Of a stretch of 64,000 nt of DNA, positions 5,138-30,457 are shown one piece after another. The translations under genes and the position numbers were made by a program. The notes under the pieces were generated by a model that saw only the letters and a program-made list of their open reading frames with translations, ran no database searches and was not told the DNA's origin. The DNA is from Parvularcula marina (GTDB taxonomy: Bacteria > Pseudomonadota > Alphaproteobacteria > Caulobacterales > Parvularculaceae): the NCBI RefSeq assembly GCF_003399445.1, contig NZ_QUQO01000001.1, positions 1 through 64,000 on the forward strand, read 5' to 3'. Positions within the stretch are counted from its first letter, which is position 1. Each line of letters starts with the position of its first letter.

Positions 5138-7021
5138 CTACCGTCTTCTGCGGCGCAGTTTGAGCGGTGGCAGGGGCTCGTCATTCACCGCATCGGAGTT
5201 GAGGATGATCGTTGCGGGCAACTTGGCACCTGGCTTTGTATGCTCGCCAGCCTCCTCCTCGAGGAAAGTGTAAAAGTCGATCACCGGCGGCGTCGCACGA
5301 CCGATACCGCCATCCTCCGGTGGATGACGTGCGGGGTCTTTGAGCTCATCAGCCGAAAAGTTTGTCCGCAGATCATAGGTCCGGTCAGGGTCATTCCGCA
5401 GATAACGCTGCGCCTCGTACCATTTCTGTTTGTCTGGATCTTCCTGACAGGTCGCTAACTCGATGCCTTTGGCTCCCCAGCGCCGCTCCGGGCAGTGATA
5501 GGGGTCAAAGCTGAGATCGAAGATCCGGTCGATCGCGTGATGCATATTGAGCTTCACAACGGTGTCATCGGACCGCTTGTAATTGATCTCGCAGCTTTTC
5601 GCGGCACGGTCATAGACATCGAACAATGCCGCCGCGAGATCGCCTGTCGGATAGTTGATGTTCGGATCGCCTTCTTCGTGGCGGCGGATCAGGTCACGTG
5701 CCAGCTCATTGAGTTCAACGGCTTGCGTCTTCAAACGTGCATCACGAGACGGAGTCGCATAGCGCTCCCAATCCCCATAGGTGCCGTAGATATTTTCAGG
5801 TAGTTTCTCAGGCGCGGGCTTTTCATGCACGCCGGCATAGACGGCAAGATTGACAGCTGTCTTCCGTGCACGGAAAGACGAGCAGAGCGCCGCTGTCGCA
5901 TTGGCCATTTCCTCGACCGGGTCATAAGGCGTGCCGGGTTTTCTCAGCCGCATGCGTACCCAGTCATAGTAGGGCAGGAAGCGGTCTTCGACGAAGAAGC
6001 GGCTGCGATCCCAACGTCCAGAGTCATCGGGATGCGTGCCCCAATACTGCTCCATTGAGAAATCAGGAAGCGTCGCGTTTTTTGCGCCGACAACGTTTCC
6101 GCCGATATAAGTACCCTTTGACGTCTGGCGGGCACCAGTCAGGCGGATCGGGCGCCATGCTTTCAGTCCAGAGCCAAGCTCAGGTTCAGAACGGACAACA
6201 TGGTGGCCGTAAGGCTCGCGGCTGACCGTATAGTCAGGGTGCGAAGAGATCAGCAGGATGCGACCGTCATCCTCAATCTCATAGACGATGCTGACATGGC
6301 CGTAGATATCATAAGCGATGGTCCCCGGGCGCACGGCCTCGCGCGTCACACTGACGGGATAGAAATCAGCAAATTGCAGCCGCTCGTCTTCAGGATGGAC
6401 ACGGAGCATCGCAGTCGAGACGATGTTGAAGATCCGGTTGAGCAGGACCGGCGCGTTGCGCGGGCTGCGGCCCTCCGGCTGGATCACATCTGCGCGGCTG
6501 ACGACTCGGTTGCCGTATTTCGAGTAACGCGCGTCATTGCCGGCATCCTTGCCGGGCCTGATCGAGATCGCATCCTGAAAAGAGAAGGGCAGGCCGCGTT
6601 TCCACGAATAATAGCCGCGCAGCACATAGACCATGTCTGTGCAGTCGCCGAGCCACAGCATGTCCTCGTCATCATAGACGCGGTAGGGATTGGCATCAGA
6701 ACGCAGGCAGTCATCAATCGAGATACAGCCCGACCGGCCGATGGCCTGAACGAAGGCCTCATAGCCGCGCTCATCTTCCTCGGTCCATTCGGTGGCCCAG
6801 ATCTCCCAAGAAGCCGTCTTGTTCCGTGCCGGCGGCATCAGCTCTAGAAGGTGGTCGAATTTCTTCTGGCCGAAGGCTTCATCGGTGCCGCGCACGACAT
6901 TCCAGTAGCGTTCGCCCCGGACAACGTCCTCAATCGGCGGGAAATTGGAGGCAGGCTGTGCCGCGGCGGCAAGCGCCGGCAGCAGGCCCAATAGTCCCAG
7001 AATTCCCCAACGACGTCCCAT
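5138..7021 (-). CDS. Large secreted protein with a possible papain/NlpC-like peptidase domain
   Basis: 627 residues with a signal peptide (about 1-22, ending ALAAAAQP). I do not recognise the family by name. Residues 120-250 hold a Cys-then-His arrangement typical of circularly simple papain-like folds: LGDCTDMVYVLRGYY around Cys127, then PGTIAYDIYGHVSIVYEI around His242, the latter like the GDIV...GHVaiV strand-loop-strand of NlpC/P60 and CHAP enzymes. The remaining 330 residues are polar, with Cys residues at 99, 105 and near 400-550 that could form disulfides. It is monocistronic, with a 121-base gap to the gene upstream. A cell-wall or peptide hydrolase role is inference. Confidence 0.6.
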   Translation of the reverse strand: MGRRWGILGLLGLLPALAAAAQPASNFPPIEDVVRGERYWNVVRGTDEAFGQKKFDHLLELMPPARNKTASWEIWATEWTEEDERGYEAFVQAIGRSGCISIDDCLRSDANPYRVYDDEDMLWLGDCTDMVYVLRGYYSWKRGLPFSFQDAISIRPGKDAGNDARYSKYGNRVVSRADVIQPEGRSPRNAPVLLNRIFNIVSTAMLRVHPEDERLQFADFYPVSVTREAVRPGTIAYDIYGHVSIVYEIEDDGRILLISSHPDYTVSREPYGHHVVRSEPELGSGLKAWRPIRLTGARQTSKGTYIGGNVVGAKNATLPDFSMEQYWGTHPDDSGRWDRSRFFVEDRFLPYYDWVRMRLRKPGTPYDPVEEMANATAALCSSFRARKTAVNLAVYAGVHEKPAPEKLPENIYGTYGDWERYATPSRDARLKTQAVELNELARDLIRRHEEGDPNINYPTGDLAAALFDVYDRAAKSCEINYKRSDDTVVKLNMHHAIDRIFDLSFDPYHCPERRWGAKGIELATCQEDPDKQKWYEAQRYLRNDPDRTYDLRTNFSADELKDPARHPPEDGGIGRATPPVIDFYTFLEEEAGEHTKPGAKLPATIILNSDAVNDEPLPPLKLRRRRR

Positions 7022-7107: not shown

Positions 7108-7593
7108 ATGTCGAAATTCGCCTTTTTGATCAGGCCTTACGTGGCTCTTGACCTGCCCGCGATCCGCGAAATGTGGGGGCGCTCGATCCGAGAGTTGGGC
7201 CCGCGCGCCTATTCGCCTGAACAGGTCGCGGCTTGGGCCGTGCGGACGAATGATATGGATCGGCTAGGGGAGAGGCTAGGGGACGGCCGGCAGGTCTGGG
7301 TCGCAGAAGGCGTCACCGAAGAGCCAATCGGTTTCATCGACCTCGAAGAAGATGGACATATCGACTTTCTTTATGCCGCGCCTGAGGCCGCGGGGCAGGG
7401 GGTAGCCGTCCGGCTCTTTGCTGAGGTCGAGCGCGCAGCGAAAGCCGCGAAGATCAGCCGTCTGCATACGGAAGCCAGCGAAGTCGCGCGCGGTTTTTTC
7501 GAGCGGATGGGCTTTGTGATGCTTCATCGCCGAGAGCTGGAGCTTGATGGCGTGCCGATCCATAACTGGAAGATGGAGAAACAGCTCGCCTGA
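7108..7593 (+). CDS. GNAT-family N-acetyltransferase
   Basis: 161 residues with the GNAT fold pattern: N-terminal IRPYVALDLPAIREMW, the core GFIDLEEDGHIDFLYAAPEAAGQGVAVRLFAEVE with the acetyl-CoA pyrophosphate loop (A-x-G-x-G-V-A, a variant of Q/R-x-x-G-x-G/A), and C-terminal ARGFFERMGFVMLHRRELELDGVPI. Its closest type is the YafP/YjaB group. The substrate is unknown. It is divergent from the secreted protein at 5138-7021. Confidence 0.85.
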   Translation: MSKFAFLIRPYVALDLPAIREMWGRSIRELGPRAYSPEQVAAWAVRTNDMDRLGERLGDGRQVWVAEGVTEEPIGFIDLEEDGHIDFLYAAPEAAGQGVAVRLFAEVERAAKAAKISRLHTEASEVARGFFERMGFVMLHRRELELDGVPIHNWKMEKQLA

Positions 7594-7609
7594 ACCCGCA
7601 AGGTTCAGG
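7589..7609. terminator. Hairpin between convergent genes, possible bidirectional terminator
   Basis: CCTGAACC (7589-7596) and GGTTCAGG (7602-7609) form a perfect 8-bp stem with a 5-base loop, spanning both stop codons of the convergent acetyltransferase and response-regulator genes. Neither side has a T run, so intrinsic termination is uncertain. Confidence 0.4.
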
Positions 7610-8018
7610 CAGAAAGATGGCCCGTCTGGGTCAGATGGTCGACAAGGCAGTTGACGAGTTGTTCGTCACTCGACGGTTTGACGACCACGGGCGCACCGAT
7701 TTCTTCGATCAACTCACCCCGCCGCCGCAGATCGCCTGAATGCAGGATGAAGGGGATGCCATATTCCTTGAGGCGGACGGCGACATCCGCGCAGGTCTTG
7801 TTCTTGCCGAGATTTACATCGAGTACGGCGCAATTGAAGACGTGTTGGGTCATCGCCTCCAACGCTTCTTCGGGTGAAAGGCAGTGCACGACATCAGCGC
7901 CGTAATCCTGAAGGCTCATCTCGACGTCGAGTGCGATGATTGGGTCGTCTTCCAGTACCAGAATTTTGAAACCAGATAACTTCATGCCTGTCTCGCTCAC
8001 GGAATACTGCAACATCAT
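7605..8018 (-). CDS. lovR: Single-domain response regulator, LovR-like
   Basis: Receiver domain only (137 residues from 8018, or 126 from the ATG at 7985). The phosphorylation pocket is visible: LVLEDDP acidic pair, phosphoacceptor Asp in CAVLDVNLG, Ser in FILHSGD and Lys in VVVKPSS. There is no output domain, as in LovR, which in Caulobacter opposes LovK in the general stress response. The start at 8018 overlaps the kinase stop as TGATG with GGTGA upstream, so I prefer it; 7985 fits the domain boundary better. It is the second gene of a kinase-regulator operon. Confidence 0.82.
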   Translation of the reverse strand: MMLQYSVSETGMKLSGFKILVLEDDPIIALDVEMSLQDYGADVVHCLSPEEALEAMTQHVFNCAVLDVNLGKNKTCADVAVRLKEYGIPFILHSGDLRRRGELIEEIGAPVVVKPSSDEQLVNCLVDHLTQTGHLSA

Positions 8019-9073
8019 CACGACATCACCGGCATGTGCAAGGTCGCCTTCAGCCCGTCCTCTTGCCAATCGAGGCCGAGCTCTCCCCGTGCCGATTTGA
8101 GCAGGGTCGACATGATGCCGGAGCCAACCCCGGCCTCTTCGGGTACGTGATCAATTTTAGGCCCGCCGGTCTCCTTCCAGTCGAGGATTAAATGTCCATC
8201 CTCTTCGCGCCAGTCGAGAGTGACCTTGCCTTCGTCCGCACTCAGCGCGCCGTATTTCGTCGCATTGGTCGCCAGCTCATGAAGGACAAGTCCGACTAGT
8301 GAGATGGTCGAGGTCGAAAGGCCGATCTTTTCACCTCTCATGATAAAGACATCCTCCGAACCCGCCGCATAAGGAGAAAGGACGGCCGTCACGATCTCCG
8401 AGATGTCCGCTGGCCCAGCGCTGGCCGAGGAGAGGGCATTTTCATGCGCATTGCCAAGCGCCCGAATACGGCCATTGATCTTGTCCGTAACCTGCTTTGC
8501 ACCTTCCTGACGGCCCGTCAGAGAGACGATTGAACCGATCACGGAGAACATGTTCTTCATGCGGTGGGAAAGCTCACGCGCCAGCAGCTTTGCCTGATGC
8601 TCATCCGCTCGCGCGGCATGGACGTCCGAGACGTTCCATTGCGAGCCGAAAAAGTAGAGCAGCTCCCCGGTGTCGCCGTCGTAGATCGGGCCAAGGTGAA
8701 GTGCGTTCCAGAATTTAGTGCCGTCCTTGCGGTAGTTCAAAACCTCGACAACCAGCACTTCTTCCTCCCGGATCGCCTTGCGGATCAGGTTGAGGGAGTC
8801 TTCATCCGTATCCGGCCCCTGGAGGAAGCGGCAGTTCTTCCCGATCACTTCGTCATGGTCGTAGCCGGTCAGCATAAGGAAAGCCCGATTGGCAAAAATG
8901 ATCGGATTGTCGGGCTGGTTCGGATCAGTCAGGCAGACAGCCATGCGGGTCTGCGCCATGGCCCTTTCGAAAAGGACTCCGGTCGCACCCGTAAAATTAT
9001 CTTCAGGATGCCCACTTTCGGTGTCGTCGTGAGCGCTCTGTGACTGGGAAATGTTTTCGGTCGTCTTTTCCAT
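8018..9073 (-). CDS. lovK: LOV-domain histidine kinase (blue-light sensor), LovK-like
   Basis: 351 residues. The start at 9073 has GGAGG four bases upstream; a longer frame lacks this. Residues 30-150 are a LOV-type PAS domain with the flavin-binding signature GKNCRFLQGPDTD; Cys81 would form the photo-adduct with FMN. Next comes an HWE/HisKA2-class kinase: phosphoacceptor His170 in ARELSHRMKNMFSVIGSIV, the N-box HELATNATKYGALS, a W-x-E motif (LDWREED) and the G-box GVGSGIMSTLL. There are no membrane segments, so it is cytoplasmic. Order and architecture match Caulobacter lovK-lovR, where light and redox feed into the general stress response. The promoter at 9092-9117 supports stress control. 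Confidence 0.88.
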   Translation of the reverse strand: MEKTTENISQSQSAHDDTESGHPEDNFTGATGVLFERAMAQTRMAVCLTDPNQPDNPIIFANRAFLMLTGYDHDEVIGKNCRFLQGPDTDEDSLNLIRKAIREEEVLVVEVLNYRKDGTKFWNALHLGPIYDGDTGELLYFFGSQWNVSDVHAARADEHQAKLLARELSHRMKNMFSVIGSIVSLTGRQEGAKQVTDKINGRIRALGNAHENALSSASAGPADISEIVTAVLSPYAAGSEDVFIMRGEKIGLSTSTISLVGLVLHELATNATKYGALSADEGKVTLDWREEDGHLILDWKETGGPKIDHVPEEAGVGSGIMSTLLKSARGELGLDWQEDGLKATLHMPVMS

Positions 9074-9091
9074 GTCGCCTCCGCAAGAAGA

Positions 9092-9117
9092 AACGTGGAA
9101 CAATCATCCAAGGTTCC
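9092..9117 (-). promoter_or_regulatory. Predicted EcfG-type general stress response promoter
   Basis: On the minus strand GGAAC (9117-9113) is followed after exactly 17 bases by CGTT (9095-9092). This fits the alphaproteobacterial EcfG/SigT consensus GGAAC-N16/17-CGTT. The -10 element lies about 20 bases upstream of the kinase start codon, leaving room for a short leader holding the GGAGG site. In Caulobacter lovK-lovR is SigT-dependent; control here is inference from the match. Confidence 0.7.
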
Positions 9118-9281
9118 GAAGTGCTGGAAAGTCAATGTAAATCAATGACATAAGAATGTGCGTTGATGCATGTTTGGTAAGGCGGTCTGTACGGAATTGA
9201 GAGCGTCCCCCCTCGTAAAATAACGCTTCGGTCACCATATATAACTAGGTAGGCGCACCAGCGCCGTTGCAGGAGGGATTT

Positions 9282-10241
9282 ATGGAGCAGGGTCTGATTT
9301 TCGTCGCGGTATTCGTCGTTCTCGCATTTATCATCATTAATTCGATCGTGAAGATCGTCCCGCAGGGCTATCAATATACGGTCGAACGCTTCGGCAAATA
9401 CACAAAGACCCTGAAACCTGGCCTTCACATCCTCGTTCCTTTTATCGACTCGGTCGGCAAAAAAATGAACATGATGGAACAGGTGCTCGATATTCCGAGC
9501 CAGGAAGTTATCACCCGTGACAACGCCATGGTTCACGCCGATGCGGTCGCCTTTATCCAGGTCGTTGATGCCGCTCGGGCAGCCTATGAAGTCGCCAATC
9601 TTGACCGTGCGATTTCGAACCTCGCACAGACCAACATCCGCTCCGTGATCGGCTCGCTCGATCTCGATGAGACTCTGTCGAACCGGGATGACATCAATGA
9701 GCGGCTGCTGCGCGTCATCGATGCGGCAACCAATCCGTGGGGGATCAAAGTCACCCGTGTCGAGATCAAAGACCTCTCACCGCCTGCCGATATTACCGAG
9801 GCGATGGCCCGCCAGATGAAGGCAGAGCGTGTGAAGCGGGCGGAAATTCTGCAAGCTGAAGGTGACCGGAACTCGGCGATCCTCCGTGCCGAGGGCGCCA
9901 AGCAGTCGGCGATCCTTGAAGCCGAAGGCCGCCGAGAAGCTGCCTTCCGCGATGCCGAGGCGCGTGAACGTGAGGCACAAGCAGAGGCCGAAGCGACCAA
10001 GGCCGTCTCGGACGCCATTGCGGGCGGTGATGTTCAGGCCATCAACTACTTCGTCGCGCAGAAATATGTCGACGCCTTTGAAACGCTCGCCAAAGCACCG
10101 AACCAGAAATTCGTCATCCTGCCGACGGAACTGACCTCGCTTGCAAGCACGGTCGGCGGTGTCGGGGCACTGGCCAAGGCCATGATGGACGGCCAGCCGA
10201 TCAGCCCGGCAAACACTTCCGTGCCGCCGGCGCGTAGCTGA
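9282..10241 (+). CDS. SPFH/Band 7 membrane protein (QmcA/slipin type)
   Basis: 319 residues from ATG 9282, which has AGGAGGGA five bases upstream; an in-frame TTG 15 bases earlier lies before that site and is rejected. A single N-terminal helix (about 2-25) is followed by an SPFH domain ([32 protein letters not shown]). A long Glu/Ala-rich coiled coil (residues 175-245, with repeated [22 protein letters not shown] units) drives oligomerisation. Such proteins form membrane microdomain scaffolds. It is coupled with an NfeD-type partner 27 bases downstream, the standard pairing. Confidence 0.93.
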
Positions 10242-13882: not shown

Positions 13883-13969
13883 GTCGTGTGTCTCCCTGAT
13901 TGCGGCGGCGTGCCGCCTGCCTCCTGACCACCATTAGGGTTTATATGGGGTTACGAAGTGGAGCCCGCC

Positions 13970-15517
13970 ATGGCGGCATTGCGCCTTATCCTTGGAGATC
14001 AGCTCAGCCGTGGGGTCTCGGCCCTGTCCGGGCTCGACCGCGATGCAGATATTATCCTGATGGCGGAGGTCATGTCGGAGGCAAGTTACGTCCGGCATCA
14101 CCAGCAAAAGATCGCTTTCTTGTTCTCGGCCATGCGCCATTTCGCGGCTGATCTCGAAAAGGAGGGCATCAGGGTTCGCTATGTCCGGCTTGATGACAGC
14201 GGAAATAGCGGGTCGCTTTATGGCGAGGTCGAGAGGGCACTCGCGGAATGCGATGGGCTCGATGAGCTGATCGTCACCGAGTGCGGGGAGTATCGTCTCG
14301 CAGAAGAAATGGCGGGCTGGGCGGATCGGTTGGGACGGCCGGTCGAGATCCGGGAGGATGATCGGTTTGTCTGCTCTCTGACGGAATTCGAGAAATGGGC
14401 CTCAGGCCGCAAGACGCTCCGTATGGAATATTTCTATCGCGAGATGCGAAAGAAAACCGGCCTTCTGATGGATGGGGATGACCCCGAAGGCGGCGAGTGG
14501 AATTATGATACCGAGAACCGCAAGAAACTCCCGAAAGGCTATAGGCCGCCGACGCGCAAAGCCGTCCGCCATGACGATGTGACGAAGGAGGTGCTGGATC
14601 TGGTCGCGGACCGCTTCGGGGATCATTTCGGCACACTCGATGGGTTCAGTTATGGAGTCACGCGAGATCAGGCCCTGCGTCAGATGGATGATTTCATCGA
14701 GGTCTCGCTCCCAAAATTCGGCGACTATCAGGACGCGATGGCAACGAGGGAAGATTTCCTCAATCACTCGCTTCTCTCGGCCTATCTGAATGCGGGGCTG
14801 CTCTTGCCGATGGAGATCTGCGAGGCAGCAGAAGAGGCGTATAAGGAAGGTCATGTGCCGCTGAACGCGGCGGAGGGGTTCATCCGGCAGGTCATCGGCT
14901 GGCGGGAATTTATCCGCGGTGTCTACTGGCTGAAAATGCCGGCCTATAAGGAAACGAATGCCCTGAAAGCAGACCGTCCGTTGCCGGATTTCTACTGGAC
15001 TGGTGAGACGGACATGCATTGCGTGGCGGAAGTCGTCCGCTCAACGCGGGACAATGCCTATGCGCATCACATCCAGCGCCTGATGGTGACGGGGAATTTT
15101 GCGCTGCTCGCCGGGATTGCGCCGGAGGCGATCAATGAGTGGTATCTGATCGTTTATGCGGACGCCTATGAATGGGTGCAGCTACCCAATACGCATGGCA
15201 TGGCGATTTTCGCTGATGGCGGGGTGGTGGGTTCAAAACCCTATGCTGCCTCCGGTGCCTATATCAATCGGATGTCGGATTATTGCTCAAGCTGCCGCTT
15301 CAAGGTCACCAAGAAGACAGGCGATGATGCTTGTCCTTTCAACTATCTCTACTGGGATTTCCTGATGCGGAATGAAAAATCCTTACGCGGTAATCACCGG
15401 ATGGGGATGATGTTCAAGAATCTTGATCGCAAGAGCGAGGAGGAGAGTGAAGAGCTGAAGTCGCAAGCAAAAGCGTTTCTGGATGGCCTGCCTTCAGGGA
15501 CAAAGGGGCTTTACTAA
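13970..15517 (+). CDS. phrB: Iron-sulfur (6-4) photolyase, PhrB/FeS-BCP family
   Basis: 515 residues; GGAG precedes ATG 13970 by seven bases, better than the in-frame GTG at 13958. Repairs UV (6-4) photoproducts using light and FAD. The N-terminal alpha/beta domain (MAALRLILGDQLSRGVSAL) and C-terminal FAD domain match the deoxyribodipyrimidine photolyase-related family. Four cluster cysteines are at 351 (DMHCVAEV), 439 and 442 (YCSSC) and 455 (DACPFNYLYW). They match the spacing I recall for Agrobacterium PhrB (350, 438, 441, 454), predicting a [4Fe-4S] cluster. Confidence 0.93.
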   Translation: MAALRLILGDQLSRGVSALSGLDRDADIILMAEVMSEASYVRHHQQKIAFLFSAMRHFAADLEKEGIRVRYVRLDDSGNSGSLYGEVERALAECDGLDELIVTECGEYRLAEEMAGWADRLGRPVEIREDDRFVCSLTEFEKWASGRKTLRMEYFYREMRKKTGLLMDGDDPEGGEWNYDTENRKKLPKGYRPPTRKAVRHDDVTKEVLDLVADRFGDHFGTLDGFSYGVTRDQALRQMDDFIEVSLPKFGDYQDAMATREDFLNHSLLSAYLNAGLLLPMEICEAAEEAYKEGHVPLNAAEGFIRQVIGWREFIRGVYWLKMPAYKETNALKADRPLPDFYWTGETDMHCVAEVVRSTRDNAYAHHIQRLMVTGNFALLAGIAPEAINEWYLIVYADAYEWVQLPNTHGMAIFADGGVVGSKPYAASGAYINRMSDYCSSCRFKVTKKTGDDACPFNYLYWDFLMRNEKSLRGNHRMGMMFKNLDRKSEEESEELKSQAKAFLDGLPSGTKGLY

Positions 15518-29746: not shown

Positions 29747-30457
29747 ATGAAAAGACTGATCGCGGGGAACTGGAAAATGCATGGCTTGAAGGCGGCCATG
29801 GCAGAAATCGAAGCCCTGTCCGGCAAGCTGACGCCTGCTGATCTCGAGAAAAGTGACGTGCTGATCTGCCCACCTGCGACGCTTCTGATGGGGCTGGGTG
29901 AGCAGGCGCATAACGGTGTCGCGCTTGGCGGGCAGAATTGCCATCAGGAGGAAATGGGCGCCTATACCGGCGATATCTCCGCCGAGATGCTGGCCGAGGC
30001 GGGCGCAAGCTATTGCATCGTCGGGCATTCAGAGCGCCGTGCAAAACATGGCGAGCATGACGCGCTGGTCCGCCAGAAGGCCGATGCCTGCCACCGTGCA
30101 GGGATCACGCCCATCATCTGTGTCGGTGAATCCTTCACTGACCGGGCGCAGGGCAAGGCCGTTAAGGTCGTGACCTCCCAGCTCTGGGCATCTCTGCCTG
30201 AAGATCACAGCCAGGTCGTCGTCGCTTATGAGCCTGTCTGGGCGGTCGGCAGCGGCGCGATCCCAACTCTCGACGATATAGGCGAGGTTCACGCGGCGTT
30301 GCGTGAGGTTGCCGGGCAAAATGCACGGATTCTTTATGGGGGGTCTGTAAAGCCGTCCAACGCGGCCCAGATCCTGTCTGTTCCTAATGTTCACGGCGTC
30401 CTTGTGGGTGGAGCCAGCCTGAAGGCCGAGGAGTTTTACGGAATCATCTCTGCCTGA
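29747..30457 (+). CDS. tpiA: Triosephosphate isomerase
   Basis: 236 residues from ATG 29747, with AAGGA upstream. Interconverts dihydroxyacetone phosphate and glyceraldehyde-3-phosphate. Active-site elements: Lys10 in AGNWKMHG, His in YCIVGHSERR, Glu in VVAYEPVWAVGSG, and the C-terminal phosphate loop ILYGGSVKPSN...GVLVGGASL. It is about 10-15 residues shorter than most bacterial enzymes, but all catalytic parts are intact. It overlaps the next gene as TGATG. Confidence 0.97.
   Translation: MKRLIAGNWKMHGLKAAMAEIEALSGKLTPADLEKSDVLICPPATLLMGLGEQAHNGVALGGQNCHQEEMGAYTGDISAEMLAEAGASYCIVGHSERRAKHGEHDALVRQKADACHRAGITPIICVGESFTDRAQGKAVKVVTSQLWASLPEDHSQVVVAYEPVWAVGSGAIPTLDDIGEVHAALREVAGQNARILYGGSVKPSNAAQILSVPNVHGVLVGGASLKAEEFYGIISA

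Follow-up and report, generated by a model that had tools for sequence, protein, structure and literature searches.

LOV kinases and the general stress response

In Caulobacter, lovK and lovR are directly under the stress sigma factor SigT (PMC4438053), and LovK-LovR acts against the stress response as a phosphate sink, in a probable negative feedback (PMC5964349). In Erythrobacter litoralis, the kinase that shares an operon with lovR, EL362, transfers phosphate to LovR only (PMC4438053). Light response varies among LOV kinases (PMC10359499). The present analysis concerns a predicted EcfG-type promoter upstream of a lovK-lovR-like gene pair in Parvularcula marina, located within positions 1 to 64,000 of contig NZ_QUQO01000001.1 (the window, meaning the whole stretch of 64,000 nucleotides that was analyzed).

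Like lovK-lovR of Caulobacter crescentus, the P. marina locus unites a LOV-HWE kinase, a single-domain receiver, and a stress-sigma motif in the promoter (PMC4438053, PMC5964349). Unlike in Caulobacter, where the motif precedes both genes (PMC4438053), it precedes lovK only. The window kinase also differs from Caulobacter LovK in scoring below the cut-off of the LovK model, the blue-light-activated histidine kinase equivalog NF052306 (298.3 vs 450 bits), and in belonging to another clade, as judged from a tree without a named Caulobacter sequence. In layout, the predicted operon of LOV kinase and lovR resembles EL362-lovR of E. litoralis (PMC4438053). As a soluble LOV-HWE kinase tied to the general stress response, the protein further resembles RT-HK (RT349) of Rubellimicrobium thermophilum and LOVHK of Brucella; unlike the window genes, however, the lovhk and lovR genes of Brucella sit on separate chromosomes, and the motif is missing from both of their promoters (PMC4438053).

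The motif, gene order, domains, stress module, positional enrichment, and recurrence in relatives described below were computed directly. The predicted stress-sigma promoter before the LOV kinase is a well-supported new example of an arrangement known from Caulobacter, and it is moderately probable that the locus as a whole acts as a feedback limb modulated by light, in which an EcfG promoter drives a lovK-lovR operon and the phosphorylation of PhyR is restrained or tuned. The lovK promoter opens no new kind of system. With it, a second clade of LOV-HWE kinases appears to come under general stress sigma control, here in a genome using both 17- and 16-nucleotide (nt) spacers, and the example bears on whether LOV kinases typically feed signals into the stress response or are induced by it as brakes.

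The promoter motif upstream of lovK

Positions 9117-9092 of the minus strand read GGAAC-CTTGGATGATTGTTCCA-CGTT, with a spacer of 17 and zero mismatches, both by direct reading and by pattern scan; the exact match claimed in a first-pass annotation of the sequence is thus borne out. In the predicted promoter (9092-9117, minus strand) the -35 element GGAAC occupies 9117-9113 and the -10 element CGTT occupies 9095-9092. The spacer falls in the range of the published EcfG-type consensus, GGAAC-N16-17-C/GGTT (PMC12148442), and stress-sigma motifs with nearby spacers are given in two further papers (PMC6599016, PMC7083833). Between the -10 element and the lovK ATG at 9073 there are 18 bases (9091-9074), rather than the 20 given in the first-pass annotation. 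A Shine-Dalgarno sequence GGAGG, read from the sequence, precedes this ATG at 9078-9082 (minus strand), and transcription starting near 9083-9085 would give an estimated leader of ∼10-12 nt. The consensus therefore lies just upstream of a gene, in a genome encoding EcfG, NepR, and PhyR, as expected for an EcfG promoter. A scan for sigma-70-like sites returned none in 7400-9400, where shuffled sequences give 0.9.

An alternative TTG start at 9103, giving an open reading frame (ORF) of 361 amino acids, was rejected because that frame begins inside the promoter; the ATG at 9073 is preceded by the GGAGG and places the cysteine at residue 81. Likewise rejected was an EcfG promoter reading divergently into the neighboring SPFH gene from the plus-strand GGAAC paired with the -35 element, as neither CGTT nor GGTT follows after 16-17 nt. 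The GGAAC of the -35 element also forms one arm of a short inverted repeat (GGAAC, 11 nt, GTTCC) at 9097-9117 (minus strand) that extends into the spacer; the repeat is probably due to chance, and the promoter of the same-genus genome G004 is without it.

Positional statistics and the stress module

One alternative is that the motif arose by chance and that a different sigma factor transcribes lovK. Within the window, spacers of 16-19 give 4 matches compared with 1.56 ± 1.28 in shuffled sequences, and 8 of 100 shuffles reach 4, so that the window alone proves nothing; its only other N16/N17 site, at 30359-30384, lies antisense within an ORF that reads as triosephosphate isomerase. Raw genome counts are no help, because the 45 exact N16/N17 sites found in 2 x 3.396 Mb are fewer than the 87 sites of a reversed control pattern. 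By arithmetic from these 45 sites, ∼0.001 would be expected per gene on the right strand within 150 nt upstream.

All 45 exact sites and, for comparison, 45 sites having wrong spacers (14, 15, 18, 19, or 20) were classed by means of a simple gene caller based on codon usage. The wrong-spacer sites were picked in map order from contig C1 out of 77 (122 less 45), with two near-coincident sites skipped. A site within 150 nt of a downstream start was taken as promoter-like. Because the caller omits ORFs under 50 amino acids, sites before small genes, the entericidin-like gene for example, do not score as promoter-like, nor does the nepR site; its choice of the TTG start places the lovK site at a distance of -12. 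Correct-spacer sites are intergenic in 28 of 45 cases, compared with 6 of 45 for wrong spacers (Fisher p 2.8e-6); the numbers of promoter-like sites are 20 and 1, respectively, each out of 45 (Fisher p 1.7e-6). Taken by themselves, the 23 N17 sites are also enriched by position (11 intergenic, p 0.003; 9 promoter-like, p 1.3e-4), and the genome therefore seems to use 17-nt as well as 16-nt spacers.

The genome holds one PhyR above cut-off (356.8 vs 240 bits). Clustered with it are NepR (53.2 bits), an EcfG-type extracytoplasmic function (ECF) sigma factor that has regions 2 and 4, a ferritin-like Dps, and an HWE/HisKA_2 kinase. The PhyK model matches this kinase over most of its length at 314 bits, below the cut-off of 750. 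N16 sites stand before nepR, a small entericidin-like ORF, and, near phyR, an EF-hand-like ORF, both ORFs being named by eye. When 16 of the 20 promoter-like genes, lovK among them, were scanned with Pfam, the matches included CsbD, PRC-barrel, hemerythrin, Transgly_assoc, CHAD, ExoD, OmpA, and EipA, with two of the 16 giving no match. Such families make up a usual stress set. Elsewhere in this genome, HWE-type kinases at C1:2142-2144 kb (L002/L013) and C1:1495 kb (L012) are accompanied by receivers bearing PFVFVTGY or PVIFATGY, which look like FAT-GUY regulators. FAT-GUY regulators are phosphate hubs of the stress response.

The kinase and its receiver

The lovK-like gene (8018-9073, minus strand) encodes a soluble protein of 351 amino acids that scores 428.3 bits to the PRK13559 subfamily model NF010077, above the cut-off of 361. 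Its LOV/PAS domain (8645-8938, minus strand) matches PAS_9 at residues 46-143 with 70.3 bits, over cut-off, and carries NCRFLQ with the cysteine predicted to form the adduct at residue 81, counted from the ATG at 9073, in agreement with the Cys81 signature first reported. An HWE_HK match over cut-off (8330-8575, minus strand; residues 167-248, 61.6 bits) contains the H-box ELSHRMKN, and together the two domains identify a LOV-HWE histidine kinase. The single-domain regulator proposed as its partner is a receiver of 126 amino acids encoded at 7605-7985 (minus strand), 32 nt after the lovK stop; a lone receiver domain encoded beside a LOV-HWE kinase corresponds to the LovR type. The solved receiver nearest to it is 2msw_A (E 3.6e-27), which we take to be E. 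litoralis LovR. A weak terminator-like hairpin at 7587-7611 (minus strand) overlaps the end of lovR, the window having 3 such sites compared with 1.7 in shuffled sequences.

Recurrence at related kinase loci

LOV-HWE kinase loci were drawn from 398 genomes of the order, 385 of the class, and one scan of species genomes. Among 35 loci examined, 23 pass a filter for the LOV motif and H-box, the window's own included, and 12 fail it (L091, L094, L096, L098, L100, L101, L105, and L168-L172). Loci L168-L172 were left out of the motif scan, and a partial match (L051) was not used. GGAAC-N16/17-[CG]GTT occurs upstream in 11 of the 23 filtered loci (9 N16, 2 N17), that is, in 10 of 22 besides the window. 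Upstream of the same 23 loci, spacers 10-15 and 18-22 give zero matches; spacers 23-24 give four, three of them sharing GGAAC with an N16 match. Three of the excluded loci (L098, L100, and L101) have the LOV motif and show no promoter motif at N15-18, and counting them gives 11 of 26, window included. Near-identical loci (L093/L103/L104 and L090/L092) reduce the 11 motif-bearing loci to ∼8 distinct ones.

In the kinase tree two separated groups carry the motif, and the window kinase falls in a different supported clade from the group of one family of the order (f3), in which 7 of 8 loci have it. The f3 group is taken as the Caulobacter LovK type, in a tree that has no named Caulobacter sequence. 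Within the genus, the G004 copy carries the motif with N16 and GGTT. A third group in the tree, of three loci, is without the motif. Three family f3 kinases (L087-L089) are above the PRK13559 cut-off, have NCRLLQ in place of NCRFLQ, and are without a stress-sigma motif upstream. The promoter upstream of lovK is labile across relatives. The proposal of an EcfG-type promoter upstream of the LOV kinase finds support in this recurrence, in the position statistics, and in the PhyR-NepR-EcfG module.

Because the motif appears in two deeply separated clades (7/8 and 4/12, with spacers 16 and 17), stress-sigma control of the LOV-kinase limb might have arisen more than once, a suggestion we make tentatively and regard as somewhat doubtful. 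If it were true, placing a light-modulated phosphate sink under EcfG, and losing that control again, may have happened repeatedly in alphaproteobacteria, perhaps depending on which PhyR system a lineage keeps.

Several observations weigh against EcfG-driven feedback at this locus. The motif is upstream in 4 of 12 window-clade loci, the window counted, and missing from the other 8. Four same-genus copies in genomes G002, G003, and G008 are without it, as are, for the exact motif, L047, L048, L049, and L050, despite canonical PhyR and NepR in their genomes. The four N16/N17 sites around phyR-nepR-ecfG and a nearby fifth all have spacer 16, whereas lovK has 17. In the genome as a whole, 17 of the 45 exact sites fall within genes, and an exact match is therefore not proof. 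Finally, Brucella lovhk is not controlled by the stress sigma factor, and LOVHK there activates the response (PMC4438053). The absence from most close relatives, the intragenic sites, and the shuffled windows are also what would speak for a chance match; that explanation was nevertheless rejected on the enrichment by position and by spacer and on the recurrence at related kinases, and with so few sites expected before any one gene and no sigma-70-like site near lovK we consider it very improbable.

Direction of the regulation

The site would be a promoter recognized by EcfG that drives the two-gene lovK-lovR operon. On phosphorylation of PhyR, NepR would free EcfG, and LovK and LovR would then be made. 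LovK would be cytoplasmic, with blue light expected to alter its kinase activity, and would exchange phosphate mainly with LovR, which most likely drains phosphate, so that the operon would restrain or tune PhyR phosphorylation. Judged one by one, lovK is very probably transcribed by EcfG and LovK is quite probably sensitive to light; LovR is likely to be its main partner. That the net effect is restraint rather than stimulation of the stress response we hold to be only slightly better than an even prospect. An EcfG-induced limb restraining or tuning PhyR is favored because of the Caulobacter sink, the transfer from EL362 to LovR only, and the identity of 2msw_A as the nearest receiver.

The first-pass annotation had light feeding into the general stress response, as in Caulobacter. 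Sigma control of the kind published for Caulobacter is likely; however, the promoter places the kinase downstream of EcfG, from which light as a PhyR input does not follow, and in Caulobacter LovK-LovR restrain the response (PMC5964349, PMC4438053), a comparison that would point to feedback rather than light input. Closer to the annotated view, the promoter may be real and LovK activating, in which case light would alter autophosphorylation, LovK would phosphorylate PhyR, and EcfG control would constitute positive feedback. PhyR is phosphorylated by Brucella LOVHK and also by the orphan E. litoralis LOV kinases EL346 and EL368 (PMC4438053), and RT-HK phosphorylates one of two PhyRs (PMC12148442). 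None of the Brucella and E. litoralis kinases just named is encoded beside lovR, however, in contrast to the operon-type EL362 (PMC4438053), and a lovR-like gene adjoins the kinase in all 12 window-clade loci. We regard an activating LovK as unlikely.

A third possibility is that the main output of LovK-LovR lies outside the general stress response and that EcfG merely sets its level. Attachment is one such output, being also governed by LovK in Caulobacter (PMC5964349). Among 10 genomes of the genus, PhyR and NepR score above cut-offs in three (G000, G004, and G006) and not in the other seven, and the lovK-lovR pair is kept in three of those seven (G002, G003, and G008). The last three nevertheless have a divergent PhyR-like and ECF sigma locus, so that a stress link may persist there, and we regard an output outside the stress response as improbable.

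A PhyR-like locus in sister genomes

Outside the window, sister genomes hold the most unusual feature encountered, a PhyR-like locus that lacks a recognizable NepR. The same-genus genomes G003, G008, G009, G005, and G002, in which neither PhyR nor NepR is found above cut-offs, share a locus (L273-L277, respectively) consisting of a Crp/Fnr-like regulator, a divergent PhyR-like protein, an HWE kinase, and an ECF sigma factor ∼30% identical to EcfG. The PhyR-like proteins score 163-172 bits to NF006623 (cut-off 240), and in L273 Pfam detects the receiver only. In three of the five loci the sigma gene is followed by a small ORF, which in L273 matches zf-HC2 weakly. GGAAC-N16-CGTT coincides with or lies close to the PhyR-like gene start in four of the five; the remaining locus has it ahead of the sigma gene. 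The locus may be a PhyR switch in which another anti-sigma factor replaces NepR. A literature search on a NepR-less PhyR system found nothing, which is weak evidence of absence. Loss of the stress system as the cause of the missing lovK motif in sister genomes was considered and dropped in view of this divergent locus and of the many GGAAC-N16/17-CGTT sites there.

Neighboring genes

The longest ORF near the operon (627 amino acids, 5138-7021, minus strand) gives no match in Pfam at E 0.001. A gene for a deoxyribodipyrimidine photolyase-related protein (DPRP, 280 bits) is located at 13958-15517 on the plus strand, ∼5 kb from lovK; the genome-wide list of exact N16/N17 stress-sigma sites has no entry near it. 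Divergent from lovK are an SPFH/band-7 gene and an NfeD-like gene.
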